From a virus: a stretch of DNA of 64,000 nt. Below, one piece after another: positions 3,173-23,011 of this stretch. Both the position numbers and the translations under genes were made by a program. Below the pieces are notes generated by a model. It searched no databases and was not told the origin of the DNA. It saw only the letters and a program-made list of their open reading frames with translations. Position 1 is the first letter of the stretch. Every line of letters starts with the position of its first letter. The stretch lies in IMG/VR virus record IMGVR_UViG_3300017962_003867, positions 1 to 64,000 of that record, one strand, 5' to 3'.

Positions 3173-5857
3173 ATGTCAATTTGGGTAACAGGATCTTTAG
3201 AAGTCAGAAACACATCAGGTGACCTCGTTTTCCAAGTAGGGGACAGCGCCGTTGCTAATCCAGATCCCACTCCTATGAACTTTAGATCCTCTATTGTCGA
3301 AGGGTCTTTTGAGGTTATTGGTGATCAGAATGTCAGCCATAAAATCCTTACAGCATCTTATGCTGGTGGCACTAACGGTGCCCGGGTTGGAGTAGGTGTA
3401 AGCGCAGAAACAAACGTAGCTTTCGCGGTAGGTGGAGACTTAGGATTAAGCGATACTTCTAGTGATCGCAGGATTGTAGTAGAGTCAGCTAGCGCTTTAG
3501 GAGATGCTTATATAAACGCTGGGTATGATAACAGTAACCGTCTTTTCATAATGTGGGAAGGTCAAGAAAAACGCATACGGATGGGTACCAGGGAAAGTGG
3601 TAGTACGTACTTCAGCTCTTTTATTATTAAATCTGGAAGCGCTGATTTACAAAACACTTTTACGGCCGGCGGAGATATAAAGGCTGGTGGTTCATTACAA
3701 GTCGGCGGTAATGTTATTCAAGCTTCAGACGGTGGAAACACCATCATCATGGATACGGATGATAACGTTACAATACGTGGTGACTTAACAGTCAATGGTG
3801 GAGACATTCTTGGACCCACTGCCGGCCAATTAGCAATCAAGTCAGATGGTAATGCTATCATACAGGTTGATGCAGATAGCACCGGTGGAACCCCTGTTTT
3901 TGCTGTTTGGGATGAGTCTCAAAATCCCCAGTTTAGAGTACAGCTAAATGCTGCTGACGGCGGCACTAATAGCGTGACAACCACATATGGGCACGCCCAT
4001 GTGGGAGAGAACTTAAACGTTACCGGATCTTTTGAGATGGGTAGTAGCGCAGTAGCCAACTTCGGCGCGGGTTCGACCCTAAACTTTGGAGCGAACTCTT
4101 CTATTGATTGTGCTGCTTTCACTATTGACTCCACGTCAAACATAACGCTAGATTCTGACTTAAGTCAAATATACATCAAGGATAACGGTGCTGATCGTTT
4201 CTCTTTCACCGCTGCTAACTTAAAAATACATAATGAGAGCAATACTTCAGACTATTTTGCTATTGATGTTGGAGCAAATGGGGCGACTACGCTGTCTACT
4301 GTCGATGATGGTGTCACTGCTACTGGTCACCTTTATGTAAATCCAGACGGTATCATACAACTACAACCGATCGGTGGAGTCAGGATCGTTGGAACCAACC
4401 CTTACTTGAGAATTGGTGATGGTGGGGCAGAAGACGTTAAGGTTGAGTTTTATTATCAAGCAGCTGGTACTCTTTACTACCATGCCGGTGTGGATAATAC
4501 TGACAGTATCTTCAAGATTGGACATGGGAATGTTCTTGGTACAGATTCAGCTATAGAGGTTGACACAACAACATCTGTTAACGTGAATCTTCCCATGACA
4601 GTTAATGACACGATCACTCTAGAGAATGGCGCAACAATAGGTAATGGAGTCTCAGGACGGATTGATCTTGCCGCCGCCACGACACGCTTGAGTGGTGACT
4701 TACAAATTGCAGGAAACGACATCTTGAACAGCGGTGGTACCGCTGTGATGTCTATTAGCACTGGTAATGTCGTTGCCACCGCGGATGTTGAGGCCCAGAA
4801 CGTTCTAGCTGGAGGCTTGACTAGTACTAATTTGACTAGGGATAGAGTTGTGATTGCTGGGACTGGTGGTTTGCTAGATGATAGTGCTAACCTAACTTAT
4901 ACTACTAACAGACTAGCCATGGAGGGTGGCGGAACTCCATCAGTAGTGCTCATGTCAGATAGTACAAGTATGAATAATGGCGCCGGTTTGTACCTAAAGA
5001 GATATGTACCAAGTTCTACGACGCCTGCAGCAGGATATAACGTTGGTGAGCTAAACTTCCAAGCCTCCACCGATGATATTACATATCATGACGTCGCAAA
5101 CGTTATAGTAGAGTTTTCTGAAACCTTCCAGCCAGCTACGGCGGAAGGAACTAGAATTGTTTTCAACTCCACGGCCAACGGAGCGACGTCGACCACTCAA
5201 CACTTACAGGTCGGAGGTATGGATAATGCTCATGTTGCTGTTGGGTCTAATCCCCTAACAAATGGTGGTGGAAACGCAGGACTTTTAATTGGTGTTGGTT
5301 CCGGTAATGAAGCTAGATTAGACTTGATTGAGAACACTATTTCTACAACAGAAGGCTTTGGAACCGTTGGAGCTTACGGCTTCAGGGTGATGTACGATGG
5401 GACTGCTAATGACCTTATAATACAAAGCGGAGAGGCGACGAGCGTCGTCAATCGGATCATAGTTGATCGAGCCAGTGGGCTATTACAGGTACCGTCGGTG
5501 TACACTTTATCCACCGCCTCCTCCGCGAATGTCAATGTCGATGTCGCCGGACAGATTAGAAGATCTACTTCCGACCGTAGAGTAAAGAAAGATATATCTG
5601 ATTTGTCTGCTAGTCTCGATCAGGTGACAAGTCTTTTACCACGTCTGTTCTATGACATATCCGATGATACCAATAGTGTACATATACCTGGGTTTGTAGC
5701 TGACGAAGTTGTTGATATTTTTCCAGAACTAGTCCCAGAAAGAAATGAGCCTGTAGAGATCACGAGGTCAGTATCTTATGACAGAGTGACAGCTTACATA
5801 GTTTCAGCGCTAAAAGAAGTAAAAGATAGATTAGAGGCTTTAGAAAGCTCTAACTAA
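3173..5857 (+). CDS. Tail fibre with C-terminal S74 intramolecular chaperone
   Basis: This 894-residue protein starts at an ATG preceded by GAGG at 3160-3163, four bases after the previous gene. Most of it is low-complexity fibre sequence with DLTVNGGDIL and DLQIAGNDIL units that resemble the upstream fibre. The last roughly 95 residues begin SDRRVKKDI at about Ser800 and run into GFVADEV and a final helical stretch (VSALKEVKDRLEALE). This is the signature of the Peptidase_S74 / endosialidase chaperone domain, which helps fibre trimers fold and then cuts itself off just before the conserved Ser, with a Ser-Lys dyad (here Ser800 with Lys805 or Lys806 as candidates). The mature fibre would end near residue 799. 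Host-recognition role is inferred from family and context. Confidence 0.92.
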   Translation: MSIWVTGSLEVRNTSGDLVFQVGDSAVANPDPTPMNFRSSIVEGSFEVIGDQNVSHKILTASYAGGTNGARVGVGVSAETNVAFAVGGDLGLSDTSSDRRIVVESASALGDAYINAGYDNSNRLFIMWEGQEKRIRMGTRESGSTYFSSFIIKSGSADLQNTFTAGGDIKAGGSLQVGGNVIQASDGGNTIIMDTDDNVTIRGDLTVNGGDILGPTAGQLAIKSDGNAIIQVDADSTGGTPVFAVWDESQNPQFRVQLNAADGGTNSVTTTYGHAHVGENLNVTGSFEMGSSAVANFGAGSTLNFGANSSIDCAAFTIDSTSNITLDSDLSQIYIKDNGADRFSFTAANLKIHNESNTSDYFAIDVGANGATTLSTVDDGVTATGHLYVNPDGIIQLQPIGGVRIVGTNPYLRIGDGGAEDVKVEFYYQAAGTLYYHAGVDNTDSIFKIGHGNVLGTDSAIEVDTTTSVNVNLPMTVNDTITLENGATIGNGVSGRIDLAAATTRLSGDLQIAGNDILNSGGTAVMSISTGNVVATADVEAQNVLAGGLTSTNLTRDRVVIAGTGGLLDDSANLTYTTNRLAMEGGGTPSVVLMSDSTSMNNGAGLYLKRYVPSSTTPAAGYNVGELNFQASTDDITYHDVANVIVEFSETFQPATAEGTRIVFNSTANGATSTTQHLQVGGMDNAHVAVGSNPLTNGGGNAGLLIGVGSGNEARLDLIENTISTTEGFGTVGAYGFRVMYDGTANDLIIQSGEATSVVNRIIVDRASGLLQVPSVYTLSTASSANVNVDVAGQIRRSTSDRRVKKDISDLSASLDQVTSLLPRLFYDISDDTNSVHIPGFVADEVVDIFPELVPERNEPVEITRSVSYDRVTAYIVSALKEVKDRLEALESSN

Positions 5858-6054: not shown

Positions 6055-8004
6055 ATGTCAGTATTCAAAAGTCCATTTGAGCAACAGCAGCCTTCTGTCA
6101 ATTTGATCGATGACAGTACAGATGTGGTTGTAGTTGCAGATTTATTTGTAGAAGATTATGTCGGTGGTGCTGAGCTAACAACCGAAGCTCTAATTCAAGC
6201 CGCAAGTGATGTCAAGGTACAGAAGGTTTATGCTAGAGATGTAAGCATGGCAATGCTAAAGTCCGGGCATGGGAAGCATTGGGTTTTTTGTAACTCGACT
6301 TCTATGAATCCATCTCTTATTCCGACCATCATCGCTAACATGGAATATTCAATAATCGAATATGACTACAAGTTCTGTAAATTCAGAAGCATAGAGAAGC
6401 ATGAGTTAGAGACTGGTACTCAATGCGACTGTCATGAAGATCTTCACGGTAAGATGATATCAGCTTTCTTCCATGGCGCAAAGAGCCTATGGTGGATGAG
6501 TGAAGATCAAGAAGCAAGATACTTAGCACGTTTTCCTTTCCTAAGAGAAAATGATTCAGTTGTGCTTAGCAGCGTTTTCGATGATAGCTTCTTTGCATAT
6601 GTCAACTCCGTGAAGTATGAAAATGAGAATCAAGACCGTCAGGGGTGGATTGTTCTCGGCTCAAATTCTTGGATCAAGGGGTTTGAAGATGCCGAGCAGC
6701 ACTGTAAAGATAACGACTTGGAATACGAAGTCGTGTGGGGAGTTCCTCATGAAGAACTGCTTCAAAAGCTTTCTGCTGCTGAGGGTTTTGTGTATCTGCC
6801 TAAGGGAGGAGACACATGTCCAAGAATGGTTATCGAAGCCAAGGCTTTAGGATGCGAACTGGTCTTAAATGAGAACGTTCAGCACGCTAATGAGGAGTGG
6901 TTCACTGGATCTGATATCGACATGCTGTCATATCTCTATGCAGCCCGCGAAAGATTTTGGAACGCAATCAAGTCTATCATGAATTATACTCCTACACTTT
7001 CTGGCTATACCACTGTTAGGAACGCAAATCGTATGAAGTACCCTTGGCAGGCGACTGTAAGGTCCATGCTTGGCTTCTGTGATGAGGTAGTTGTTGTCGA
7101 TGGTGGTTCCGATGACGATACATGGGAAGAACTACAGACCATGGCTCAGGGTCAGGAAGACGGACGTCTTAAAGTATACCAGCATTCTGTTCCGAATGAT
7201 CACCCCTCATTTGCGTATGAGACAGACGGTAAGCTAAAAGCTACAGCTAGAAGCTATTGTACAGGTGATTTCTGCTGGCAGATGGATGCCGATGAGATAG
7301 TCCACGAAAATGACTATCAAAAAGCTAGAAATGTCATGAAGGCTTTCCCACCACAGTTTGACATCATGTCGTTACCAGTTATCGAGTACTGGGGCGGTGA
7401 CGAAAAAGTTCGTATGGATATCAATCCATGGAAGTGGCGGATAAGCAGAAACAAACCATATGTTACGCAAGGTATCCCGAGTGAACTTCGAAGATGGGAT
7501 GAAGAAGGTAACATATATGCTGCTTTAGGGACAGACACATGTGATTACATACACTCTGAGACAGGTGAAAGAATACCCCACGTCGGCTTCTACACTGAGG
7601 ATGCGCATAGGGTTAGGCTAGCTGCTTTGATGGGTAATGATGAAGCGATGTCCGCATATCAAAACTGGTTCCAGCAGGTTGTAGATCAGATTCCATCAGT
7701 TCACCACTATTCATGGTATGATATTTCTAAGAAGATTAAGCAGTACAAGCTTCATTGGGCATCATTCTGGAAAAGCCAGTATCGTCATGATGCAGAGGAT
7801 ACCACAGAGAACAATGTCATGTTTGATAAGCCGTGGAGCGAAGTAACTGATGAAGACATCGAAGCTTTAAGCAAAAGGTTGGCTTCTGAGTTAGGGGGGT
7901 GGATATTCCACACTAAAGTTGACTTCTCTGCGAATGTTCCTCATGTAACTCTTAATACAACTCATCCTGTAGAGTTCTTAAATTTACGAGAGAAAAATGA
8001 ATAG
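6055..8004 (+). CDS. Two-domain glycosyltransferase (GT4-like plus GT2)
   Basis: This 649-residue protein appears to fuse two transferases. Residues about 20-310 look like a GT-B enzyme of family GT4: an N-terminal VGGAEL segment, then a Rossmann-like second half (WIVLGSNSWIKGFEDAEQ) and a donor-site region EGFVYLPKGGDTCPRMVIEA. From about residue 320 a GT-A family GT2 domain follows, with EVVVVDGGSDDDTWEEL and a metal-binding DxD-type motif MDADEI near residue 411. The ATG has AGAGG at 6044-6048. The next gene starts inside its 3' end (8-base overlap), so translation is probably coupled. It opens a run of sugar genes and probably builds a glycan in the cytoplasm. Acceptor and donor sugars are unknown. 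The N-terminal domain is more diverged than the C-terminal one. Confidence 0.85.
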   Translation: MSVFKSPFEQQQPSVNLIDDSTDVVVVADLFVEDYVGGAELTTEALIQAASDVKVQKVYARDVSMAMLKSGHGKHWVFCNSTSMNPSLIPTIIANMEYSIIEYDYKFCKFRSIEKHELETGTQCDCHEDLHGKMISAFFHGAKSLWWMSEDQEARYLARFPFLRENDSVVLSSVFDDSFFAYVNSVKYENENQDRQGWIVLGSNSWIKGFEDAEQHCKDNDLEYEVVWGVPHEELLQKLSAAEGFVYLPKGGDTCPRMVIEAKALGCELVLNENVQHANEEWFTGSDIDMLSYLYAARERFWNAIKSIMNYTPTLSGYTTVRNANRMKYPWQATVRSMLGFCDEVVVVDGGSDDDTWEELQTMAQGQEDGRLKVYQHSVPNDHPSFAYETDGKLKATARSYCTGDFCWQMDADEIVHENDYQKARNVMKAFPPQFDIMSLPVIEYWGGDEKVRMDINPWKWRISRNKPYVTQGIPSELRRWDEEGNIYAALGTDTCDYIHSETGERIPHVGFYTEDAHRVRLAALMGNDEAMSAYQNWFQQVVDQIPSVHHYSWYDISKKIKQYKLHWASFWKSQYRHDAEDTTENNVMFDKPWSEVTDEDIEALSKRLASELGGWIFHTKVDFSANVPHVTLNTTHPVEFLNLREKNE

Positions 8005-8779
8005 AGTTTCCGTATTGATACCCTTATACAACTGCGAATCGACAGTTCGTAGAGCATTAGTATCAGTAAAAAATCAGACCTACAAAGACTTTGAAGTCAT
8101 CGCCGTCGACAATAACTGTACAGATAGCACTATCGAAATAGTCGAAGAATTTATTGACGATATGGACATAAAGATAGTGAGCTGTAAAGAGCCGGGTATT
8201 GTTCCTGCCCTCAATGCAGGTCTTAAACATTGCCATCTTGAGTTTGTGGCGCGCCAGGACGGAGATGATTACTGGTATCCTGAAAAGCTAGAAAAGCAAG
8301 TTGCTTTTATGGACGAAAATCCTGAAGTGTCAGTCTTGGGAACGCAGATACAGTTACTTGACGAAGAAGGTAACTTACAAGAAATGGGTACGATGGGAAG
8401 AAAAGTTGATTACCCAACTGATGACAATACAATTAAGGCGTTTTTTCTTTATGGTCAAAATTCAATATGTCACCCATCTGTGCTGATAAGAAACAAAATG
8501 TTTGGTATAGTCGGAGGCTATGAGCAGCTTTTTCCAAAAGCTGAAGACTTACATCTCTGGCTTAAGCTTTTACCACATACAGATTTTGCTAACTTAGAAG
8601 ATGTTCTTGTTGATTATACTCAAAGAAAAGACCCTGACTATGACGCTAGAATACCGATTTTTATGAGCGATACATACTACACGATGTATAAGACAGCAGG
8701 TATTGTTCATGGAGAAAGAGAGAAAAAGATTTATGATTGGCAACTCGATCCTACTGCACATGGTAACAAGAGGGTGTGA
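7997..8779 (+). CDS. GT2 family glycosyltransferase
   Basis: A 260-residue single-domain GT-A enzyme. The N-terminus VSVLIPLYNCESTVRRAL and the stretch EVIAVDNNCTDSTIEIV are the nucleotide-sugar-binding half of family GT2. RQDGDDYWYPEKLEKQ carries the DGDD metal site, and the length matches the family. It overlaps the preceding transferase by 8 bases and is followed almost immediately by another GT2 gene, so the three are almost certainly co-translated. There is no membrane segment, so it should act on soluble or membrane-face intermediates in the cytoplasm. Sugar specificity cannot be read from the sequence. Confidence 0.92.
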   Translation: MNRVSVLIPLYNCESTVRRALVSVKNQTYKDFEVIAVDNNCTDSTIEIVEEFIDDMDIKIVSCKEPGIVPALNAGLKHCHLEFVARQDGDDYWYPEKLEKQVAFMDENPEVSVLGTQIQLLDEEGNLQEMGTMGRKVDYPTDDNTIKAFFLYGQNSICHPSVLIRNKMFGIVGGYEQLFPKAEDLHLWLKLLPHTDFANLEDVLVDYTQRKDPDYDARIPIFMSDTYYTMYKTAGIVHGEREKKIYDWQLDPTAHGNKRV

Positions 8780-8781
8780 CT

Positions 8782-9534
8782 ATGCAAAAAATGAAGATAG
8801 TGGTTCCCACCTACAATACAGAGAACTGGATAGAGCGTTGTCTTAAGTCTATTTCTACTCAGACTTTTGTGAATTGGGAGTGTGTCATAATAAACGATGC
8901 TAGCACTGACAAGACAGGAGAAGTTATCGATAGCCTTCCCTTTGTGAAAGATGACAAAAGGTTTAAAGTCGTTCACAACCAAGAGAATGTTAAAGCGCTT
9001 AAGAATATAGTCGACGGTTTTAATATACTGAAGTGCCATGAAGATCCGGATAACATCATGATGGTAATCGATGGAGACGATTTTCTGTATTCAGATTCTA
9101 GCCTGTCTATAATAGAAGCAGTGTATACGCAAAACCCTTCTTTCTTGTTGACTTACGGTGACTGGATTGGCCACCCCTATGGTGATCGTAGCAATTGCAG
9201 ACCCTATGCAAGAGAAGTGGTTATTGGAAATGACTATAGAAACGTCCCTTTTTGCGCTTCGCACTTAAGAACATTCAAGAGCCGATTGTGGTACTCGATT
9301 AAAGATGAAGATCTACGTGACAACAGTGGAAAGTACTTTTCGGCTGGCTGGGATGTTGCATTCATGGTACCAATGTTAGAAATGGCTCAAGAGCGTCATG
9401 CGTTCTTACCGTATGTTATGTATTGCTATAATAAGGAAAACCCTTTGTCGGATTATAAGGTAAACTCCAAAGAGCAAAATGATGCAGTCACGCTAACGAA
9501 AAGTCGTAAAAAGTACGAAAGACTTTCTTGGTAA
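8782..9534 (+). CDS. GT2 family glycosyltransferase
   Basis: A second GT2 enzyme of about 250 residues. It begins KIVVPTYNTENWIERCLKSI, followed by CVIINDASTDKTGEVID and the metal site MMVIDGDDF. A GTG at 8776 overlaps the previous stop, but AAGAGGG at 8768-8774 is correctly spaced only for the ATG at 8782, which I chose. The C-terminal half (SAGWDVAFMVPMLEMAQ) is acceptor-side sequence with no recognisable specificity motif. It is a divergent neighbour of the gene before it, and may represent an old duplication or separate acquisitions for successive sugars of one chain. Confidence 0.9.
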   Translation: MQKMKIVVPTYNTENWIERCLKSISTQTFVNWECVIINDASTDKTGEVIDSLPFVKDDKRFKVVHNQENVKALKNIVDGFNILKCHEDPDNIMMVIDGDDFLYSDSSLSIIEAVYTQNPSFLLTYGDWIGHPYGDRSNCRPYAREVVIGNDYRNVPFCASHLRTFKSRLWYSIKDEDLRDNSGKYFSAGWDVAFMVPMLEMAQERHAFLPYVMYCYNKENPLSDYKVNSKEQNDAVTLTKSRKKYERLSW

Positions 9535-9557
9535 AAAAAGAATAACGGAAGAAGAAT

Positions 9558-10760
9558 ATGGAAGATAATCAACTACTGCAACTATATAGAAGATCTTTGG
9601 TGCATCTATCAACTTCAAATATTAATTCTACTAGGGTCCACACTCTCAAATCACTTGAAAAAGACAAATTTCGATTGTATGAAGAAGATCAAAGCTGCGA
9701 GTTGCTAATAATAGTGCCTGTCCATAAAAGAGGTAACCACTTAAAAGCAACAGTTAGATGTCTAAAGTCTCAAATAAATAATTTGGAAGATCCAACCGCT
9801 GTTGGGTTGATAGTGTCCGAGATGGATGATGAGCCCTTACATAACATTTTCTGTACAGAGGAGAAAACAAGCTATCACTTTATGAGAAAAGTGAAGGGTG
9901 AATTTAATAAATCTGTTACGATGAACGCCGCAGTAAATCACTTTATTGGAGACACTAGTCATATCCCTTCCTACATTTTGTTTCATGATGTAGACATTGT
10001 TACAGACGATGGGTGGGTTAAAAGTTGCTTGGACAATGCTAGAAATTTTCAAGCATCACTACCTGCTGGTGAAGGATGGATATGCCAAACTATAAAAGAC
10101 AGAAAGCTAGAATACGTTTCAAAAGAAAATACAGAAAAATACTTTTCGAATGAATTGAGTACCAAAGACTTGAGTCAGATATCACATAACATAAGCAGCA
10201 GGTGGTATGAACAAGTGTATCCACCTGGTGGTAGTATAATGGTGAACGCTCTCCTTCTATATGCTAGTGGTGGTTATGATGAAGCTTTGTTCTGGGGTTA
10301 CAGTCCAGAAGATAAGCACTTTTTAGATATATGTCAAATCTTGGCCCCCAACTGTTTTTTTACGTTTGAAAGTGAGAAGAGGTCTTATCATTTGCACCAT
10401 GAAAACCTAGAGCTCACCAACAATAGTTTGGAACACATGGTCGCGATAAGTGGCATGATAAAAGCAGATATATCTGTATTTTGCTATCACCAAGCTATGA
10501 AATTAGCCGCGCACATTATTTTTCCCAAAATCAACCACATCGCTTTCTATAGTTTGCTAGACACATCTGGAAAGGATGGGTACCTAGATTTCTATAAAAA
10601 CGCTTTTTCTGATATCGATGGCGAGACTTTTGTTCTTGTTCACCGTGCGAACAGGCCTCTTGCTAGGTTTATATTAACTTACTTGGCTCAAATTATACCA
10701 GACCATAAGTTGGTCCAACAATTTAACACAAGCGCCGGCCCAAAGCCCGGTGTTCAGTGA
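9558..10760 (+). CDS. GT-A glycosyltransferase, GT2/GT7-like
   Basis: This 400-residue protein has a GT-A start (LLIIVPVHKRGNHLKATVRC) and the metal motif FHDVDIVTDD. Further on, GGYDEALFWGYSPEDKHF resembles the GGxxE-FWGW-ED block of the galactosyltransferase-like GT7 C-terminal domain and of chondroitin-polymerase-type bacterial enzymes. About 110 C-terminal residues after that have no family I recognise. The ATG follows GGAAGAAGAAT. The gene sits in the run of transferases, and its stop overlaps the GTG of the next gene. Likely role: adding a hexose or N-acetylhexosamine. The exact sugar is unknown. Confidence 0.82.
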   Translation: MEDNQLLQLYRRSLVHLSTSNINSTRVHTLKSLEKDKFRLYEEDQSCELLIIVPVHKRGNHLKATVRCLKSQINNLEDPTAVGLIVSEMDDEPLHNIFCTEEKTSYHFMRKVKGEFNKSVTMNAAVNHFIGDTSHIPSYILFHDVDIVTDDGWVKSCLDNARNFQASLPAGEGWICQTIKDRKLEYVSKENTEKYFSNELSTKDLSQISHNISSRWYEQVYPPGGSIMVNALLLYASGGYDEALFWGYSPEDKHFLDICQILAPNCFFTFESEKRSYHLHHENLELTNNSLEHMVAISGMIKADISVFCYHQAMKLAAHIIFPKINHIAFYSLLDTSGKDGYLDFYKNAFSDIDGETFVLVHRANRPLARFILTYLAQIIPDHKLVQQFNTSAGPKPGVQ

Positions 10761-12743: not shown

Positions 12744-13616
12744 ATGGGTTCTAATAAAGATAATGATGTGCTTGAAGTCAACTTGTTTGACTATAATATT
12801 GCCCACGCTACTAGCTATGACGACTCTTTAGAGAAGGGAAGGATAGAGCCCGGTATCAAATACATTAGAGATTATGACCCTCAAAGAGTAAGCGTATTTA
12901 CCGATAATATGCTGAGTCAAGTTGATAACAAACCGGGAATTATTAACGTAGCTTGGATAATGGAACCCATAGACTTCGCTCCAACTTCTTATAAGTACCT
13001 TTCGCAAAATTACAAGAAGTTTGATTTAATCTTAACCCATAACCTAGATGTTATTGATAAACACTTATCAGAAGTTGACTGTCGATACGTAACAGCAGAT
13101 GGTATTTTTTTAGACACTCCTGCTCTTGATAAAGCAAACCACAATAAAAGCCGACTTTGCTCACATATTTTCTCTAGCAAAAGGTCTCTTCCTGGGCATA
13201 GGTTAAGACACGACATCGCCACGATGTTACCTAATTCTTTTGATATGTTCGGATCAGGAACAGGAAAATGGCTAGAAAAAAAGTCGGATGCTCTAAGAGA
13301 TTACTATTTTTCTGTTTCAATAGAAAACAGCAGGTCTAGAGGCTACTTTACAGAGAAGATTATGGATTGTTTTGCAACAAGGACGGTGCCTATCTATTGG
13401 GGAGATGCTCATGTGTGGGAGTATTTCAATAAAGATGGAGCAATCAGGTTTGATACCCTAGAGCAGCTAAAAGACATAATCAATGGTATCAATAAAGAGA
13501 TGTATGATGAGATGCTACCGGCTATTGAGCAGAACTACGAGCTATGTATTAAGTCGTGTTATAGCGTAGACCGTCAAGTAAAGCAACACATACAAGAATT
13601 TATTAAGTCTAGATAA
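12744..13616 (+). CDS. GT10 family alpha-1,3-fucosyltransferase-like enzyme
   Basis: This 290-residue protein carries the hallmark of family GT10 at about residues 187-210: YYFSVSIENSRSRGYFTEKI, then FATRTVPIYWGD. In characterised GT10 enzymes this block binds the guanine nucleotide of GDP-fucose, and the Glu-Asn and Thr-Glu-Lys residues are conserved. The N-terminal half is divergent, as is usual for the acceptor domain, and there is no membrane anchor. The ATG is preceded by AGAGGAT. The same island encodes GDP-mannose dehydratase and GDP-fucose synthase-like enzymes, so the donor could be made from phage genes. A dideoxy analogue such as GDP-colitose is possible. Confidence 0.85.
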   Translation: MGSNKDNDVLEVNLFDYNIAHATSYDDSLEKGRIEPGIKYIRDYDPQRVSVFTDNMLSQVDNKPGIINVAWIMEPIDFAPTSYKYLSQNYKKFDLILTHNLDVIDKHLSEVDCRYVTADGIFLDTPALDKANHNKSRLCSHIFSSKRSLPGHRLRHDIATMLPNSFDMFGSGTGKWLEKKSDALRDYYFSVSIENSRSRGYFTEKIMDCFATRTVPIYWGDAHVWEYFNKDGAIRFDTLEQLKDIINGINKEMYDEMLPAIEQNYELCIKSCYSVDRQVKQHIQEFIKSR

Positions 13617-13631
13617 ACAAAGGAAAATAGC

Positions 13632-14345
13632 ATGTATGACATAACGCAACAGTTAGAGGATAGAAACATATTCGATGATATGTCTTTTCCAAGATTGGTT
13701 TCCTACCCAAGAACAGGCTCACACTGGCTAAGGATGATGCTGGAGGTCCACCTGGGCATGCCTTCTTACGTTCAAAGTTTTTTTGATCCGAATCCCGTTA
13801 AATGCTGGGGATTTCATATCCATAATAGGTTGATAAAAGAACCACACCATACAGAGGGTCCTGTTATAGGACTAAAGAATGTGTTATACCTTTACAGGGA
13901 TCCAATAGACACGATATTCTCACAACTTAGGTACGAAAAAAATCTACTACCTTCCTGGGACGGCAAGACTAATGAACGTTTAGACCAGGACGTTGAAAAG
14001 ATATCACAAGAATACTACGCTCATCTTAAGCGTTGGTTATCCAATAACAGTGATGTCAAGAATTTTATGTCATTGACGTACGAGGATTTGAAAGACGATC
14101 CTGTTGGAAAGCTGATGGCAATATCTACTTTTTTGGGAATGGGCGGTACTGTTGATACGGCTAGCGAGGCAGTGAGAAGATGTGATAAGTCTTTGACAAA
14201 AAAACTTACACCACATGACAATAGCGCTTTGAACGACCAGTCTTTAAATCGTCCAGATCAATATGCTGACCAAAAACGGCTCTTTGCGTCCAGATATGGA
14301 AGCGCAATAACTGAGAAGTTCAAGGGTGTATATTATGTCAAGTAA
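13632..14345 (+). CDS. Sulfotransferase (PAPS-dependent)
   Basis: A 237-residue protein with both PAPS-binding signatures of the cytosolic-type sulfotransferase fold. The 5'-phosphosulfate loop is SYPRTGSHWL at residues 24-33, and the 3'-phosphate region is YRDPIDTIFSQ beginning near residue 88. MSLTYEDLKDDP is also a familiar segment of the family. It would transfer sulfate from PAPS to a hydroxyl or amine. Sitting among glycosyltransferases, its likely acceptor is a sugar. AAAGGAAAA precedes the ATG. The next gene, another sulfotransferase of a different subfamily, begins inside its 3' end. Confidence 0.85.
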   Translation: MYDITQQLEDRNIFDDMSFPRLVSYPRTGSHWLRMMLEVHLGMPSYVQSFFDPNPVKCWGFHIHNRLIKEPHHTEGPVIGLKNVLYLYRDPIDTIFSQLRYEKNLLPSWDGKTNERLDQDVEKISQEYYAHLKRWLSNNSDVKNFMSLTYEDLKDDPVGKLMAISTFLGMGGTVDTASEAVRRCDKSLTKKLTPHDNSALNDQSLNRPDQYADQKRLFASRYGSAITEKFKGVYYVK

Positions 14346-15003
14346 ACTAGAGCATAATGAACACTGGAATTTAGAGCAAGGTATATCGGAAAGTAATAGC
14401 TTATTTTTTGTAGGTGTGCCGAAAACAGGTAGTCAGACTTTCGCTTCTATCCTCGGCGCAGGAGGACCTAACAAGATAAATTCCGGTAACTTTACGTTAG
14501 AAGACTTTTGCTTAATGCACGGAATAGAAAAAGTAAGAAGGTTTAAGAAGGTAGCCTCGATCAGAAATCCGTATGATAGAATATATTCGTGTTGGACATA
14601 CGCCGCAAAACCGAGAGGCATTAGCTTCAAAGAATTCACCAACCTCTTGAAATCACACTCTAATAGAATAAAGAATTTAGACGAGCTTTCGTCTATATCT
14701 TCTCTAGACTTGATAAGAGAGAACTTTCCTTTTGGGAACTGGACGATGCATGGGTTGGCTTCAATGCACAACTTTATTAAGCATCCTGAGATTGGCATAG
14801 ATCTAATCGTTTCGATTGACGATATGGATCATTCTATAGAGGGAATAAAGGGCTTACTAAAAAAAGACGTCAGCCCTATACATGTTAATAAGAGTAGTAA
14901 ACCAGTAGACTCTAGCTCTATGAAACGCGACCCTGAATTTATTTCAATAGTGAACGAAATATATGAGAGAGATTTTGCAGAGTTTGGTTATGAAATGCTG
15001 TGA
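14335..15003 (+). CDS. Second sulfotransferase, carbohydrate-type
   Basis: A protein of about 222 residues with VGVPKTGSQTF (residues 26-36), the 5'-phosphosulfate loop, and ASIRNPYDRIYSCW (74-87), the 3'-phosphate site. The PKTGSQT form resembles the Golgi-type carbohydrate sulfotransferases (HS2ST and Gal-3-O types) more than the preceding gene does, so the two probably have different acceptors. A GTG at 14326 is in frame, but AAGGG at 14322-14326 fits the ATG at 14335 (spacing 8), which overlaps the upstream gene by 11 bases. This is the last gene before a short gap containing a late promoter. Confidence 0.82.
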   Translation: MSSKLEHNEHWNLEQGISESNSLFFVGVPKTGSQTFASILGAGGPNKINSGNFTLEDFCLMHGIEKVRRFKKVASIRNPYDRIYSCWTYAAKPRGISFKEFTNLLKSHSNRIKNLDELSSISSLDLIRENFPFGNWTMHGLASMHNFIKHPEIGIDLIVSIDDMDHSIEGIKGLLKKDVSPIHVNKSSKPVDSSSMKRDPEFISIVNEIYERDFAEFGYEML

Positions 15004-15133: not shown

Positions 15134-16063
15134 ATGAAGATACTAGTTACAGGTGGGCATGGGATGGTTGGATCTGCATTTAACCGTGTAGACACCACTC
15201 ACACAATCATCACTATAGGCCGCCAAGATGCGGATTTAGCAAATCGGTCCGAAGTATTATCAGTGATTGATAAAGTGGAGCCTGATGCCGTTATACATCT
15301 TGCTGCAAAGGTGGGTGGTGTCAAGGGTAACACTGATTTCGTCGCAGACTTTTATACCGAGAATACCTTGATGAATACCAATATCCTTGACTGTTGTCAC
15401 GAGGCTGGTGTAACAAAAGTGCTATCGCTACTTTCTACGTGTATATATCCAGATGACGCAGTTTACCCATTAACTGAAGATCAAATTCATCTTGGTCCAC
15501 CTCATGTAAGCAACTTTGGATATGCGTATGCAAAGAGGATGCTAGATGTACACTCTAGAGCACTTCGAAGACAATATGATAGAAACTACATCTGCGCCGT
15601 GCCAAACAATCTGTATGGCCCTTATGACAACTTTGATCTTGAGAATAGTCATGTGATTCCAGCCATCATAAGAAAGATATGGGAAGCGAAAATTAATAAT
15701 AGCACACCAATTTTCTGGGGAGACGGTAGTCCCTTAAGAGAGTTTACTTTCTCTGACGATATAGCTAAGTGTTTGATTTTTTTACTTGAAAAGTATGAAG
15801 ATGCCGACCCTGTGAACGTAGGAAACATAGGGGAGGTTAGTATCAAACAAATCGTGGAAAAGACATGCGATATTTTAGATTACAAGGGTAGTATAGAGTG
15901 GGATCCAACAAAGCCTGCTGGACAGTTTAGAAAGCCAAGCGACAACTCTAAATTCATAGGTTTAGGCTGGTCTAACGATATGTATACAGACTTCGATACA
16001 GGACTGAAGGTAACAATCGATTGGTTTAAGAAAAACTACCCAAATATAAGGGGAGTTAGATGA
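15134..16063 (+). CDS. GDP-L-fucose (or GDP-colitose) synthase
   Basis: A 309-residue extended short-chain dehydrogenase. The NADP-binding GGHGMVG is at residues 7-13. HLAAKVGG at about 55-62 is a signature of the GDP-fucose synthase group. The catalytic triad is Ser (STCIYP, about 101), Tyr130 and Lys134 (YAYAKR). Such enzymes epimerise C3 and C5 and reduce C4 of GDP-4-keto-6-deoxy-mannose to give GDP-L-fucose. The related ColC acts on the 3-deoxy version and gives GDP-L-colitose. Because a ColD-like gene lies two genes downstream, both products are possible, and sequence inspection does not separate Fcl from ColC. The stop overlaps the ATG of the GT11 gene (ATGA). Confidence 0.88.
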   Translation: MKILVTGGHGMVGSAFNRVDTTHTIITIGRQDADLANRSEVLSVIDKVEPDAVIHLAAKVGGVKGNTDFVADFYTENTLMNTNILDCCHEAGVTKVLSLLSTCIYPDDAVYPLTEDQIHLGPPHVSNFGYAYAKRMLDVHSRALRRQYDRNYICAVPNNLYGPYDNFDLENSHVIPAIIRKIWEAKINNSTPIFWGDGSPLREFTFSDDIAKCLIFLLEKYEDADPVNVGNIGEVSIKQIVEKTCDILDYKGSIEWDPTKPAGQFRKPSDNSKFIGLGWSNDMYTDFDTGLKVTIDWFKKNYPNIRGVR

Positions 16064-16836
16064 TCACATGTAATCTAAAGGGAAGGCTGGGAAACCAGTT
16101 GTTTCAGATCGCAACAGCACACGCTCTCGCTCTAGATAATGGTGACAGATGCATATTCCCACTTGGCATTGAGGGTGCTACACCCAATATCTATGAAAGA
16201 ACCTTTTACGCAAATACTGTATTAAGAAACATTGTGTATGGATATGACTTTTCGTGGATAAAAAGTATCTATAGAGAACCTGGATTCCATTACAGCAAGA
16301 TAGGCTATCAAGACGGACTACTATTAGACGGGTACTTTCAAAGTGAAAAGTATTTTGTACACCAGAGGGATAGAATACTGGAGCTTTTTTCGCCCTCTGA
16401 ATATATCACTGAAAGAGTGGAAAGATATACTGAAGTTATTAACTTTGGTGAGTGTGTAGCGGTTCACGTAAGAAGAGGTGATTATGTGAAGTTGTCTGAT
16501 GTCCACACAAATCTTGCTGAAAACTCACCGTACTACACAGATGCATTAAGTAAATTTTCTAATAAGAAAAAAGTGTTCTTTAGCGACGATATACAGTGGT
16601 GCAAGCAGAAGTTCGGAGACCAACACACATATGTTGCTAATGAAAACGATGTAGTTGAGTTGTTTCTATTTTCGAAGATGTCGAGTAAGATAATCGCAAA
16701 TTCATCGTTCAGCTGGTGGGGAGCATGGCTAGGAAGTTTTGACGATGAAGTTATAGCTCCAAAGCAGTGGTTTGGTCAAAATAATTCTCACTTAAACACT
16801 GAAGATGTGATACCGCAAAGATGGAAAAGAATATGA
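16060..16836 (+). CDS. GT11 family alpha-1,2-fucosyltransferase-like enzyme
   Basis: A 258-residue enzyme with the standard GT11 motifs: GRLGNQLFQIATAHALA at the N-terminus (residues 8-24), the GDP-binding HVRRGDYV at 136-143, and IIANSSFSWWGAW at about 211-223. Length and spacing are normal for bacterial alpha-1,2-fucosyltransferases. Some GT11 enzymes from colitose-containing O-antigens are thought to handle colitose. The gene lies directly between the GDP-fucose/colitose synthase and the ColD-like gene with overlaps on both sides, so donor synthesis and transfer are probably expressed together. Confidence 0.92.
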   Translation: MITCNLKGRLGNQLFQIATAHALALDNGDRCIFPLGIEGATPNIYERTFYANTVLRNIVYGYDFSWIKSIYREPGFHYSKIGYQDGLLLDGYFQSEKYFVHQRDRILELFSPSEYITERVERYTEVINFGECVAVHVRRGDYVKLSDVHTNLAENSPYYTDALSKFSNKKKVFFSDDIQWCKQKFGDQHTYVANENDVVELFLFSKMSSKIIANSSFSWWGAWLGSFDDEVIAPKQWFGQNNSHLNTEDVIPQRWKRI

Positions 16837-17999
16837 GCATTAGATATCCTCTGGTGAAAGATACCATTGATAATTCCGACATCGATGAGCTAATCGAGTG
16901 GTTGAAGACGTATCCTAGACTAACAAAGGGACCTTTGACCAAAGAATTCGAATCAAGGTGGGCTTCTTGGCTTGGGTCAAAAAGAGCAATTTATGTAAAT
17001 TCAGGAAGCTCAGCGAATCTTCTTATGTTGTATTCCTTGATAGTCGATGGAAAAATAAACCACGGCGATTCGATTATCGTTCCGGCAATATCATGGGCTA
17101 CAGACTTATCTCCCGTAATGCAGTTTGGATTGAGACCGATCCTTTGCGATTGTAACATGGAAGACCTGTCTGTGGATCTAGAACACCTTGAGCAATTAAT
17201 TAAGGATAAAAAACCGAAAGCTCTTATGCTAGTCTCTGTACTTGGACTTGTTCCAGATATGGATAAGCTCATGAAGCTCTGCGATGATAATAACGTGATT
17301 GTCTTAGAAGACACATGCGAATCATTAGGTTCTATGTTCAGCGGCCGGAAGCTTGGTACATTCGGAACGATGTCGAGTTTCTCTCTTTATTTTGGTCACC
17401 ACATATCTACCATAGAGGGTGGTATGATATGCACAGATGATGATAATTTAGCAGATATATTGTTAAGTATAAGGAACCACGGTTGGGATCGCGACTGGAG
17501 CGAAGACAGAAAAGAAAGATACAGGAAAGAGTACAACGTTAAAGAGTTTGACGCTCTTTACAAATTTTATTATCCTGGATTCAATGTAAGAGCCACAGAT
17601 CTTCAAGCAAAGTTGGGCTTTCGACAACTAGAAAAATTAGACGAAGTTTGCAAAATTAGAGAAAGAAATTTTCAACTGTACATGTCAAACTTAAGTGAAT
17701 CAGGGATTTGGTTGCCTAAAAACAGTCCAGAGAATTTCACATCTAATTTTTGCTTCCCCATCATCCATGAAAATAGAGATAAGATTGCAGGTTCTTTGAT
17801 ATCTGCGGGAGTTGAGTGTCGGCCACTTATCGCTGGTTCAATGGGCACTCAACCCATGTACACTCGTAAGTATGGCGTTTTGCATCTCAAGAATGCAAGT
17901 GTGGTGGACAACAGCGGAATGTATGTTCCAAACAATCAATCTTTCAAAGAAGAAGACATAGACAGAATTTGTGAAATCATCATTGGTTCTGTAAACTAG
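16833..17999 (+). CDS. ColD-like GDP-4-keto-6-deoxymannose 3-dehydratase
   Basis: A 388-residue DegT/StrS-fold PLP enzyme of full length. NSGSSANLLMLYS binds the cofactor phosphate and LEDTCESLG supplies the acidic residue for the PLP ring. Where aminotransferases have the Schiff-base Lys, this protein reads SLYFGHHISTIEGG (two His at about 189-190). That Lys-to-His change is the known signature of ColD, which uses PLP and glutamate to remove the C3 hydroxyl of GDP-4-keto-6-deoxy-mannose. CDP-linked E1 has a similar His, but it also needs an iron-sulfur cluster, and its cysteine set is not evident here. An ATG at 16821 is also in frame; 16833 is preferred for its ATGA overlap and the upstream GGAAAAG. 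Confidence 0.83.
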   Translation: MSIRYPLVKDTIDNSDIDELIEWLKTYPRLTKGPLTKEFESRWASWLGSKRAIYVNSGSSANLLMLYSLIVDGKINHGDSIIVPAISWATDLSPVMQFGLRPILCDCNMEDLSVDLEHLEQLIKDKKPKALMLVSVLGLVPDMDKLMKLCDDNNVIVLEDTCESLGSMFSGRKLGTFGTMSSFSLYFGHHISTIEGGMICTDDDNLADILLSIRNHGWDRDWSEDRKERYRKEYNVKEFDALYKFYYPGFNVRATDLQAKLGFRQLEKLDEVCKIRERNFQLYMSNLSESGIWLPKNSPENFTSNFCFPIIHENRDKIAGSLISAGVECRPLIAGSMGTQPMYTRKYGVLHLKNASVVDNSGMYVPNNQSFKEEDIDRICEIIIGSVN

Positions 18000-18037
18000 A
18001 CTTTGAAAAACTAAATTTATTATTTAGGGAGTACTTT

Positions 18038-19018
18038 ATGAAGACAGCGATGGTAACTGGTATAACAGGACAGGATGGCTCTTACTTAGCAGAACTGTTA
18101 CTAAACAAAGGTTACAGAGTGGTTGGTCTCAAGAGAAGAACAAGTATCCTGTCGACTGATAGAATAGACCACTTGTTCGATAACCCGATGTTATCACTGG
18201 AATATTATTCTCTTCACGACGCCACAACGTTATACAGGCTGATTGAGAAATATAAACCACAAGAGTTTTACAACTTAGCTGCTCAATCGCACGTTAAGGT
18301 TTCATTTGATGTACCTGTCGAGACCGTTGATACTATCGTGATGGGTACTTTAAAGATTCTAGAAGCAGTTAGACACGTCGATCCAACAATAAAGGTTTAC
18401 CAAGCAAGTTCTTCAGAGATGTTTGGAGACAATCCGACTGTGCCGCAGTCAGAGACAACAGCTCTGCAACCAGCAAGCCCATACGCATGTGCAAAAGTAT
18501 TTGCCCACAATCTCTGTAGGAACTATAGAGAGTCTTACGGAATGCATATATCTAGCGGTATCTTGTTTAATCATGAAAGCCCTCGACGTGGCGAAACATT
18601 TGTCACGAGAAAAATTACGCTGGCTGCTGCGAGAATAAAGCTCGGGCTCCAAGACAAGCTTTATCTTGGAAATCTAGACGCAAAAAGAGACTGGGGTTTT
18701 GCTGGTGATTATGTGGAGGCAATGTGGAGAATGCTGCAGCAGGAATCGCCAGATGACTATGTAATTGCTACAGGCGAAACGTCGACAGTCAAGGAGTTTC
18801 TGCACAAAGTCTTTGAGATAGCAGGTCTTGATGTAGAAAAATATGTAGAAATAGACTCTCGTCTGTTCAGACCTCATGAGGTTCCTCTTCTTTTGGGAGA
18901 CGCTACAAAGGCAACAGAAAGGCTTGGGTGGAAAGCAACAGTTGATTTAGACGGACTAGCTAGGATGATGTATGAGTCAGACCTAAAGATGTTAAGCAAA
19001 GAACAAGGAAGACAATAA
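18038..19018 (+). CDS. gmd: GDP-mannose 4,6-dehydratase
   Basis: This 326-residue protein is a clear GDP-mannose 4,6-dehydratase. It has the NADP loop GITGQDGSYLAE (G8, G11, G14), NLAAQSHVKVSF at about 79-90, SSSEMFG at 124-130, and the catalytic pair Tyr149 and Lys153 in YACAKVF. FNHESPRRGETFVTRKI is diagnostic for the GMD group. It converts GDP-D-mannose to GDP-4-keto-6-deoxy-D-mannose, the common precursor of fucose, colitose, rhamnose and perosamine. It should supply both the epimerase at 15134 and the ColD-like enzyme. GDP-mannose itself must come from the host or from genes outside the window. GGGAG precedes the ATG. Confidence 0.96.
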   Translation: MKTAMVTGITGQDGSYLAELLLNKGYRVVGLKRRTSILSTDRIDHLFDNPMLSLEYYSLHDATTLYRLIEKYKPQEFYNLAAQSHVKVSFDVPVETVDTIVMGTLKILEAVRHVDPTIKVYQASSSEMFGDNPTVPQSETTALQPASPYACAKVFAHNLCRNYRESYGMHISSGILFNHESPRRGETFVTRKITLAAARIKLGLQDKLYLGNLDAKRDWGFAGDYVEAMWRMLQQESPDDYVIATGETSTVKEFLHKVFEIAGLDVEKYVEIDSRLFRPHEVPLLLGDATKATERLGWKATVDLDGLARMMYESDLKMLSKEQGRQ

Positions 19019-20567: not shown

Positions 20568-21833
20568 ATGAGTGAAAATCAAAACAAAAAATTAAAAATA
20601 CTTCTAATATCAGACCACGCCTTGAGCACATCTGGTGTAGGTTGTCAGTCACGATTCTTGATGAATGGACTGATAGAAAAGGGAAATTGGACAGTCAGGC
20701 AGCTAGGTGCCGCAATGAAGCACAGCAGTTATGACGTCCAAGCACCGCACCCAGAGTTTATCATAAAGCCCATTGACGGGTTCGGTAACCCAGATATGAT
20801 ACGAGTTCTTCTTGCAACAGAGAAGCCAGATGTACTCATGATCTTTACCGACCCGCGCTTTTATACTTGGCTGTGGGCAATGGAAGACGAAATCCACCAA
20901 GTTTGTCCTATCGCTTATTGGCACGTTTGGGACAACTATCCGTCTCCTGATTTTAATGACGACTTTTATGCATCAACAGACTTAATAAATTGTCACTCGT
21001 ACCTGACTTATGGAATAGTCAAAGAAAAGTTTCCTGATAGAACAAACTTCATACCTCATGCTCTACCAGATGAATTGTTCTTTAAGCTCCCTGAGAATCA
21101 AAAAAAGAGCTTTAGGCAACAACTGCTTGGTCCAAATTCTGAAGACAAGTTTGTTCTTTTTTGGGTCAACAGGAATGCTAAGAGAAAAAGACCAAATGAC
21201 GTACTATGGTCTTGGAAGTTGTTTCTAGATAAGCTAGATGGGGAACAGCGCAAGAACGTGATGTTACTGATGCACACTGACCCTCATGATCAAGAAGGAC
21301 CGAATTTGATGGCTACTTCTCAAAAGCTGGGTATCTTGGATACTGTGAAATTTTCAAGAGAGCGTGTTGGATTTGAACAGATGAATGTTCTTCACAACAT
21401 ATCAGATGCATGTATTAATATAGCTTTTGCAGAAGGTTTTGGTCTTGCAACTTTAGAGGCAATGAAGGTCGGGAATCCAATTATCGCTTGTAAGACGGGT
21501 GGATTGACAAGACAAGTTGTTGATCATCGTGACGGGTCTGAAAATGGTGTGGCTCTTGACATTGTAACAAAGACTCTCGTGGGGTCTCAAAATGTTCCGT
21601 ACATATACGAAGACTATTGCTCTGTCGAAGATACTGCTGAGGCGATAAATAAGCTGTACTCTATGTCTAAGCAAGAAAGAGAGCAGCTCGGCCAGAAAGC
21701 TATGGAATATGTTCAAGAAGAGTTTGCGATGCAAAAAACTATTGACTTGTGGCATGATTCTCTTCTTAAACTCGTAGAAGACTGGAAAGAAGGAAAGAGG
21801 GTTGTCCCACGTTATGAGATCAAGGAGTTGTAA
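20568..21833 (+). CDS. GT4 family glycosyltransferase
   Basis: A 421-residue GT-B enzyme. The N-terminal domain begins KILLISDHALSTSGVGCQSR, the usual GT4 glycine loop. The C-terminal domain starts near FVLFWVNRNAKRKRPNDV and contains the donor-site motif EGFGLATLEAM, in which the two Glu seven residues apart are characteristic of GT4, followed by IIACKTGGLTRQVVD. Length is typical. AAGGAG lies between it and the next GT4 gene, which starts two bases after its stop. The pair stands apart from the main island, behind its own promoter-like sequence, and might act on another substrate such as phage DNA or host glycan. That is speculation. Confidence 0.88.
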   Translation: MSENQNKKLKILLISDHALSTSGVGCQSRFLMNGLIEKGNWTVRQLGAAMKHSSYDVQAPHPEFIIKPIDGFGNPDMIRVLLATEKPDVLMIFTDPRFYTWLWAMEDEIHQVCPIAYWHVWDNYPSPDFNDDFYASTDLINCHSYLTYGIVKEKFPDRTNFIPHALPDELFFKLPENQKKSFRQQLLGPNSEDKFVLFWVNRNAKRKRPNDVLWSWKLFLDKLDGEQRKNVMLLMHTDPHDQEGPNLMATSQKLGILDTVKFSRERVGFEQMNVLHNISDACINIAFAEGFGLATLEAMKVGNPIIACKTGGLTRQVVDHRDGSENGVALDIVTKTLVGSQNVPYIYEDYCSVEDTAEAINKLYSMSKQEREQLGQKAMEYVQEEFAMQKTIDLWHDSLLKLVEDWKEGKRVVPRYEIKEL

Positions 21834-21835
21834 GG

Positions 21836-23011
21836 ATGATTGTTTTAATTAGAGGTCCATTGCTCAGCGTAACTGGATATGGATGCCATACTAGGCAGAT
21901 ATGGAAGTGGGCGAGATCGAAACCCGGTTGGCAAGTGTATGCCAACATCGTCCCTTGGGGAACGTGCACTTATTACGTAGATCCTGAAGCTGAGGATGGG
22001 GTCATCGGCGATGTGATGGCAAATTCCAGTCCACCCACTACGAAACCAGATTTAACGATTCAAGTGCAGCTGCCAGATGAGTGGGACCCTACCTTGGGCA
22101 AGGTTAATATCGGTGTAACAGCAGGAATAGAGGCAGACAAGTGTAGCATGAAGTGGATTTCTGCTTGCGAAAAAATGGACAGGGTAGTCGTTCCGAGTGA
22201 GTACTCAAAAGTGGCTTTGCTTAACGGCGGACTAGCGAAGGACAAACTTGTAAATATTCCAGAGGCTACTACATGTGGATTTGAACAGACACCCGGTTCC
22301 ATTGAGGTTACTAAAAGGCTCGACAAAATTAGCACTGATTTTAATTTTCTGATGTTCGGTCAGATAACAGCACATAATGCGGAAACAGACAGAAAAAACA
22401 CTTTTAATTGTCTAAAGTGGTTGTGCGAAGAATTTGAGGGAAGAGAAGACGTGGGGATTATCATAAAGACTAACCTGGGAAGAATGACTGTCCAGGATCG
22501 GTCATATGCAACATCTACAATCACTCAAGTTCTATCTATGGTCCGAAAAGGTGAGTACCCTCGCATTCATATTGTCCATGGGCTCATGGATCCTAACGAA
22601 ATCGGTGCTGTATACAGGCATGATAAGGTAAAGGCGCTTGTAGCTCCCACTAGAGGAGAAGGATGGGGACTTCCAATTCTTGATGCCGCCGCCAATGGTT
22701 TACCTGTTATTGCAACAGGACACTCTGGTCATCTAGATTTCCTAAAACACACGAAGTTCTTAGATATTAAATTTTCCTTAAGGGAAATACCGGAAGCCAT
22801 GCAAGACGGAAGAATATGGGTAAAAGGCGCAAGATGGGCTGAGCCTAGCGAAAAGCACTTTAAGAGTCGTGTGAGAAAATTTAAAGACTCTCATCGACCA
22901 CCCACGGAATGGGCAAGCAATAGCGCAAGCAAGATTAGAGAACTTTTTTCTATTGAGTCTGTGTTTACGAAATATGATGAAGCGCTAGGTGACTTAATTG
23001 ACTTATCTTGA
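21836..23011 (+). CDS. GT4 family glycosyltransferase
   Basis: A 391-residue GT-B enzyme adjacent to the previous one. The start LIRGPLLSVTGYGCHTRQIW has the G-rich acceptor loop. RVVVPSEYSKVALLNGG is a standard GT4 linker motif. FLMFGQITAHNAETDRKN opens the second Rossmann domain, and APTRGEGWGLPILDAAANGLPVIA (in two parts, GEGWGLPILDA then GLPVIATG) is the donor site, with Asp in place of the second Glu. AAGGAG at 21823-21828 serves its ATG. Overlap of its 3' end with the next small gene indicates one transcript. The two GT4 proteins are not close copies. Confidence 0.88.
   Translation: MIVLIRGPLLSVTGYGCHTRQIWKWARSKPGWQVYANIVPWGTCTYYVDPEAEDGVIGDVMANSSPPTTKPDLTIQVQLPDEWDPTLGKVNIGVTAGIEADKCSMKWISACEKMDRVVVPSEYSKVALLNGGLAKDKLVNIPEATTCGFEQTPGSIEVTKRLDKISTDFNFLMFGQITAHNAETDRKNTFNCLKWLCEEFEGREDVGIIIKTNLGRMTVQDRSYATSTITQVLSMVRKGEYPRIHIVHGLMDPNEIGAVYRHDKVKALVAPTRGEGWGLPILDAAANGLPVIATGHSGHLDFLKHTKFLDIKFSLREIPEAMQDGRIWVKGARWAEPSEKHFKSRVRKFKDSHRPPTEWASNSASKIRELFSIESVFTKYDEALGDLIDLS

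Follow-up and report, generated by a model that had tools for sequence, protein, structure and literature searches.

Can a phage direct the synthesis of a GDP (guanosine diphosphate)-linked deoxy or 3,6-dideoxy sugar, and if so, which one? The question is raised by the virus record IMGVR_UViG_3300017962_003867 (69,402 bp), of which we studied a window of 64,000 nt. It holds, in one block, genes for a GDP-mannose 4,6-dehydratase (Gmd), a ColD-type 3-dehydratase, an epimerase/reductase of the Fcl/ColC family and a GT11 glycosyltransferase. We found that the block is probably a phage-borne GDP-deoxyhexose cassette, leading from host GDP-mannose to GDP-L-colitose and perhaps also to GDP-L-fucose. 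Its features, in window coordinates, are:

15134..16063, + strand: Fcl/ColC-family C5(C3)-epimerase/4-ketoreductase (extended short-chain dehydrogenase/reductase) of a human-GFS-like phage clade, 309 aa
16060..16836, + strand: GT11 glycosyltransferase (alpha-1,2-fucosyl/colitosyltransferase type), 258 aa, motif HVRRGDY
16821..17999, + strand: ColD-type 3-dehydratase dependent on pyridoxamine or pyridoxal 5'-phosphate (PMP/PLP), catalytic His193, 392 aa
17397..17422, + strand: active-site motif HHISTIEGG (His replacing the aminotransferase Lys), located by alignment and DNA pattern
18038..19018, + strand: Gmd, GDP-mannose 4,6-dehydratase, 326 aa

The gene block and the ColD-type enzyme

The initial annotation had placed these four genes together, and this was confirmed: in the open reading frame (ORF) listing of the window, all four are on the + strand and free of internal stops, and their families were matched by Pfam/NCBIfam. 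The dehydratase gene had been placed at 16833; the gene is there, but its ORF starts at 16821, and 16833 is an in-frame ATG at the fifth codon. The 15134, 16060 and 16821 ORFs overlap in turn, 38 bases then precede Gmd, and a further ORF (19018-19581) begins on the final base of Gmd. A stretch of 17,176 bp spanning the block is identical in two more IMG/VR contigs (94,239 and 280,913 bp), which argues against an assembly accident; the second of these is the longest contig of this phage.

The protein encoded by the 16821 ORF belongs to the DegT_DnrJ_EryC1 family (249.6 bits), and among its solved relatives the first four places go to ColD sequences (2gms scoring 245.8 bits, against 147 for the 3-dehydrase E1 and 143.7 for the perosamine synthase Per). 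It carries the SLYFGHHISTIEGG motif, and a degenerate DNA pattern of the active-site motif occurs once in the window (17397-17422) and in 0/100 shuffles. The His noticed earlier at the place where sugar aminotransferases have Lys is borne out by the alignment: the first His of FGHH (His193) falls in the column where E. coli ColD carries His instead of Lys, while the same column holds Lys in three Lys-type relatives and in Per. ColD is described as having no [2Fe-2S] cysteines, unlike E1 and SpnQ (PMC8987622). In the 16821 protein the columns of the E1 CxC pair hold R and W, so the cysteines are absent, and the first of these columns is R in 79/79 virus sequences, with loci L008, L009, L162 and L164 set aside.

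In a FastTree phylogeny of 199 DegT proteins (Shimodaira-Hasegawa-like supports), all His-type proteins group in a single clade (0.95), within which 9 proteins make up an E1 clade (0.975) and 165 a ColD clade (0.97). The 16821 protein lies on the ColD side of this split (0.97), outside the 30-member E. coli ColD subclade and within a virus-only clade of 80 (0.956), which neighbours 13 bacterial proteins with weak support (0.60). Thus, in the comparison with ColD, Per and E1 suggested by the initial annotation, the enzyme groups with ColD and not inside aminotransferases with another active site. Furthermore, it keeps 6/6 ColD-diagnostic residues (W92, E167, W222, E332, P335 and N371; these columns are conserved to at least 90% among bacterial proteins of the ColD clade but to <25% in E1 and Lys-types). 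When an AlphaFold2 model (mean pLDDT, predicted local distance difference test, 94.3; 21 sequences) was searched against the PDB with Foldseek, the 12 best matches were all ColD chains, with template modelling (TM) scores, normalised by the query, of 0.87-0.89; Per ranked 14th and E1 23rd. The score against the E1/RfbH profile NF011936 was 230.9 bits, under the cut-off of 423. Taken together, the solved relatives, the His, the diagnostic residues, the missing CxC pair, the tree and the predicted fold make a strong case, at the level of sequence and model, for a ColD-type enzyme. E1 shares with it a His-type DegT fold and, as predicted for the 16821 protein, C3 deoxygenation (on CDP-4-keto-6-deoxyglucose, CDP being cytidine diphosphate). 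It differs in the CxC pair and in its clade; an E1 identity, as in the S-CAM7 label, was ruled out by the tree, the missing CxC pair and the fold matches, and a plain aminotransferase by the His alignment and the tree.

The Gmd protein scored 449.8 bits against TIGR01472, over the cut-off of 415. Its best solved relative is 1n7g (388 bits) and the heptose enzyme 7us5 reaches only 122.7 bits, so that by score it is far closer to hexose Gmd than to the heptose enzyme. The 16060 protein matched Glyco_transf_11 (PF01531, 95.3 bits with a cut-off of 23.9, E=5e-27) and phrog_2644; the alignment places in it HVRRGDY, an instance of HxRRxD, which we take to be the GT11 motif. In the GT11 tree, where 87/111 proteins came from phage ColD loci, it pairs with the GT11 of locus L302, and with such a sample the tree did not resolve colitosyl and fucosyl types from each other. 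Presumably WbgN of E. coli O55 is a GT11 enzyme as well. This alpha-1,2-colitosyltransferase takes both GDP-colitose and GDP-fucose (PMC12723683), thus the window GT11 could use either product.

Recurrence of the cassette

The gene set had been described earlier as not a standard phage trait. This wording proved too strong: the ColD cassette is recurrent in phages, with examples among IMG/VR contigs and two Synechococcus phages, and GDP-fucose genes are known in cyanophages. We compared 80 phage and 80 bacterial loci seeded with ColD, taking the highest-scoring His-type gene as the centre (an E1-like paralogue in L162 and L164) and counting partners within 8 kb. Among the phage loci, Fcl was present in 59, Gmd in 53, both in 44 and GT11 in 39, and Fcl or Gmd lay at most 100 bp from ColD in 54/80. 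The bacterial loci gave 58, 49, 45 and 10, respectively, with none of the three partners in 18. The commonest phage gene orders were Fcl-ColD-Gmd (11), GT11-Fcl-ColD-Gmd (11) and ColD-Fcl-Gmd (9), and ColD was alone in its cluster in 15. The order of the window, Fcl-GT11-ColD-Gmd, is repeated in L302 (a 288,697-bp contig) at 58.8, 49.8, 44.9 and 66.6% identity; the same order at such divergence argues for maintenance. The conservation of the His among the 80 virus relatives is partly due to selection, because one of the two patterns of that scan was the HH motif; an earlier scan with other patterns returned four loci, two of them from the phage of the window, and the ColD relative has the His in each.

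Among 50,697 phage records, 87 hold a relative of the 16821 protein (E <= 1e-5), in 58 cases over at least 80% of its length and always below 60% identity. Four of the 87 records were examined (S-CAM7, ACG-2014f, LR756502 and RN05-S), and all have the catalytic His; the RN05-S gene and a second LR756502 gene are E1-like. In the Synechococcus phages S-CAM7 and ACG-2014f, gmd, fcl, the ColD-type gene (with the His) and GT11 are contiguous, with a tail fibre some kb on, as in the window. Their ColD and Fcl proteins sit on other tree branches than those of the window, which suggests separate gains and thus more than one entry into phages. The ColD-type genes of these two phages are labelled "putative CDP-4-keto-6-deoxy-D-glucose-3-dehydrase" or "aminotransferase". 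If our reading is right, the phage "aminotransferase" would be corrected to a dehydratase by sequence, the recurrent cassette would mean that viruses encode a route to a 3,6-dideoxyhexose, colitose being known as a bacterial O-antigen sugar, and this glycan chemistry would be testable in isolated phages such as S-CAM7.

Each step of the pathway is known chemistry, and cyanophage GDP-fucose genes are already in print (PMC9602691). The T4-like cyanophages described there (S-SCSM1 and others) resemble the window in having a phage Gmd, a GDP-fucose synthase and an alpha-1,2-fucosyltransferase. The window adds the predicted C3-deoxygenating ColD step and differs in that no psbA match was found in the 280,913-bp contig, so that a cyanobacterial host finds no support. 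We found no report of a phage colitose pathway in the literature searched by title and start of abstract, a search with preprints and most subscription papers outside it.

Two further observations concern the distribution of these enzymes. A second kind of C3-deoxygenating enzyme occurs in phages, namely E1-like 3-dehydrases with the CxC pair (L009:5869-7164, L008:15553-16854, L162:4615 and L164:3421), in which two further E1 cysteines do not align. ColD-type genes are also present in genomes filed as Prochlorococcus AG-402-K14 (L020) and Pelagibacteraceae/SAR11 (L018, L019); they are possible host-side sources, or phage contigs within the assemblies.

The reductase and the likely product

In the pathway that we propose, Gmd would convert host GDP-mannose into GDP-4-keto-6-deoxy-mannose, and the ColD-type enzyme, PMP-charged by transamination from glutamate, would strip the C3 hydroxyl. 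A single Fcl-type enzyme would then perform C5 inversion and C4 reduction, yielding GDP-L-colitose; acting directly on the Gmd product, this enzyme would make GDP-L-fucose instead. Since one enzyme would serve both substrates, a product mixture is possible. The GT11 protein, and perhaps also a GT10 homologue encoded nearby, would transfer the sugar to a glycan. The chemistry described for ColD starts with a Schiff base between PMP and substrate; the His then drives loss of the C3 hydroxyl, hydrolysis sets ammonium free and glutamate recharges the enzyme (PMC8987622). Activity, product, donor choice of the GT11 and acceptor are what we infer from sequence. As to the supply of GDP-mannose, no NTP-transferase (nucleotidyltransferase) match was found in the 280,913-bp contig, in a search with ManB outside its scope, and GMP_PMI gave a weak partial match there (43.6 bits, cut-off 372.95).

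The initial assignment of the 15134 protein to the Fcl/ColC homologues stands. Pfam/NCBIfam place it among the Epimerase/GDP-fucose-synthase-like proteins; its best solved relative is human GFS (270.8 bits), and its identity is 35% to O111 ColC, 36% to K-12 Fcl and 43% to human GFS. By alignment it retains S101, C103, Y130, K134, H173 and R202, which we take to be the catalytic set; this set is common to ColC and Fcl and thus not discriminating. In a tree of 176 proteins, the E. coli O111 ColC clade has 30 members (0.998); the others adjoin ColD, save one that comes from a genome carrying ColD. The 15134 protein falls instead in a 46-member clade (0.999), which otherwise consists of 43 phage proteins, human GFS and a single bacterial protein. 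The ColC label is therefore not upheld, by tree position and by the columns that distinguish ColC from Fcl.

The protein reaches 269.7 bits against the Fcl equivalog NF047922, under the cut-off of 500, and we discarded this score as a test of Fcl versus ColC. Indeed, low-scoring homologues also occur in genomes without a ColD-profile match: five such cyanobacterial genomes (E <= 1e-50) hold homologues of 289-295 bits, so the cut-off does not exclude a GDP-fucose synthase identity for the 15134 protein. In 23 ColD-bearing genomes, 16/22 matches scored 256-348 bits, and the cut-off was passed by 34/150 genomes of a proteobacterial sample.

Membership of the ColC clade is not needed for pairing with ColD in bacteria either. 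Among ColD-adjacent Fcl-like proteins (from bacteria, plus O111 ColC), 25/54 lie outside that clade, so that ColD frequently has a reductase from elsewhere in the Fcl family as its partner. The 280,913-bp contig holds one Fcl-type profile match (E <= 1e-10), and no second phage-coded reductase of Fcl type for the ColD product was found in it at this threshold. We also scanned phages with Fcl seeds, keeping the best 79-80 loci of each scan, counting ColD within 6 kb and scoring the ColD/E1 split with clade hidden Markov models. Clades A8 and A9 were picked since their seeds adjoin ColD; ColD was present in 75/79 best A8 loci (9/79 already in the ColD-seeded scan, by contig names) and in 47/80 A9 loci, 37/40 among the top-ranked 40. 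The seeds of the window type had Gmd in 77/80 of their best loci. GT11 was found in 3/8 window-type, 39/75 A8 and 38/47 A9 loci with ColD, and in 5/72, 3/4 and 4/33 of those without it, so that the A8 set shows no GT11 contrast between the two. These counts suggest that some phage Fcl-like clades travel with ColD, and that the 15134 enzyme is of the kind usually found with Gmd alone; our phage pairs ColD with a fucose-type synthase.

The bacterial GDP-L-colitose pathway (E. coli O111/O55, Yersinia) likewise combines Gmd, a ColD-type enzyme with the catalytic His and no E1 CxC pair, an Fcl-family epimerase/reductase and a GT11-type transferase. The window set differs in being phage-borne and in that no ManC-type nucleotidyltransferase was found in the 280,913-bp contig (ManB being outside the search). 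Other differences, and several counts, weigh against colitose as its product. The ColD-type protein is 36% identical to that of O111, and of the 144 columns with at least 90% conservation across the E. coli ColD subclade it keeps 79. In Campylobacter, the substrates of close ColD relatives are GDP-heptoses (PMC10440746), although the window Gmd resembles hexose Gmd far more than the heptose enzyme. The reductase falls outside the 30-member ColC clade (0.998), and at 11 ColC-vs-Fcl columns it agrees with ColC at 1, with Fcl at 3 and with neither at 7. In the ColD-seeded phage loci, Gmd is missing within 8 kb in 27/80 and Gmd, Fcl and GT11 are all missing in 10/80, partly because of contig ends. 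The best 80 loci of the window-type Fcl seeds include ColD in 8/80, two of these being the phage of the window, and the 50 best-ranked contigs, searched whole, gave 5 ColD-type matches and 4 of E1 length, many of these contigs being fragments.

Such pairs of Gmd and Fcl with no ColD nearby would be expected if the main product were GDP-L-fucose, with the 15134 protein acting as a GDP-fucose synthase together with Gmd, and ColD forming a side branch whose 4-keto-3,6-dideoxy product is little used or else completed by an enzyme of the host. The phage Fcl tree agrees with this, placing the 15134 protein in a subtree of 73, of which 63 are labelled ColD-less, although all 63 came from the window-type scan and the tree is thus biased towards them; GDP-fucose genes are, moreover, known in T4-like cyanophages (PMC9602691, PMC10665884). 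We nevertheless consider fucose as the main product rather unlikely: the ColD gene is intact within a run of overlapping genes that includes Fcl, the diverged L302 has retained the Fcl-GT11-ColD-Gmd order, and ColD would consume the same substrate as Fcl.

An amino sugar is very improbable in the window, where amination of the 4-keto-3,6-dideoxy product of ColD by a Lys-type DegT protein would give GDP-3-deoxyperosamine, a ligand with which Per has been solved (title of 3dr7): the sole Lys-type DegT found at 8-28 kb of the window (11445) is a short protein of 221 aa, encoded 4.7 kb away from ColD, and the window has an Fcl-type reductase instead, whereas a Lys-type DegT of the clade nearest Per lies directly or closely upstream of ColD in L003 (6860-9146), L004 (6886-9158, closest to GDP-perosamine synthase among solved chains), L094, L098, L103 and L128. 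In those six loci, this Per-like gene suggests a GDP-3-deoxyperosamine-type product. The short DegT-family protein of the window (11445-12110) has Lys at the catalytic column, and its full-length relatives have ~370-390 aa.

Acceptor and genomic context

The sugar block sits between a tail fibre and baseplate-type genes, which makes decoration of the virion the first guess for the acceptor of the sugar and remodelling of the host surface the second. A broader proposal is that phages, ours among them, encode the full route from host GDP-mannose to GDP-L-colitose with a colitosyl/fucosyl transferase and decorate their own virions with the 3,6-dideoxy sugar, and that Fcl-like clades of phages have specialised as colitose synthases independently of the ColC clade; we put this forward tentatively, as possible rather than probable. 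The recurrence data tell against the virion: homologues of the window late proteins are present in 21/80 ColD-seeded phage loci, where it is always that of the late sigma factor, and a homologue of the window tail fibre was found in 0/80.

A separate question is whether the sugar goes instead to the host envelope, as an O-antigen change blocking other phages. The scarcity of late-protein homologues near ColD agrees with this, one cyanophage paper reads phage lipopolysaccharide genes in this way (PMC9602691), and colitose is an O-antigen sugar (PMC8987622). Set against it are the tail fibre and baseplate-type genes flanking the block in the window and the position of the cassette ~4 kb (S-CAM7) and ~7 kb (ACG-2014f) upstream of a tail-fibre gene. 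We regard the host envelope as a plausible acceptor, though not the favoured one.

Weak matches that agree with one another (late sigma factor, gp25-type baseplate wedge, S74 tail fibre) point to a myovirus of T4-like kind; 8/10 late proteins of the window had no PHROG match. The genes around the block are:

3173..5857, + strand: tail fibre carrying a chaperone domain of S74 type, located 5' of the sugar block (PF13884, 28.8 bits; phrog_1699)
6055..10760, + strand: four ORFs, GT2 context; the three scanned match GT2 glycosyltransferases, 9558 under the cut-offs, and 8776 was outside the scan
12744..13616, + strand: GT10 (fucosyltransferase family) candidate, possible second user of a GDP-6-deoxy sugar (PF00852, 35 bits, cut-off 23.9)
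13632..14345, + strand: sulfotransferase (PF00685, 59.7 bits)
14326..15003, + strand: second sulfotransferase (PF03567, 30.7 bits, cut-off 22)
20568..23011, + strand: two Glycos_transf_1-type glycosyltransferases, downstream (profile match)

The two sulfotransferases and the GT10 homologue adjoining the block suggest a sulfated, multiply decorated glycan. In S-CAM7, an adenylylsulfate kinase gene (L006:11714-12283) adjoins the ColD cassette, which fits sulfated glycans. Inside the sugar block of the window, 10757-11443 may encode a 2-oxoglutarate-Fe(II) oxygenase of the "sporadic carbohydrate cluster" type, from a weak match (19 bits, cut-off 150).

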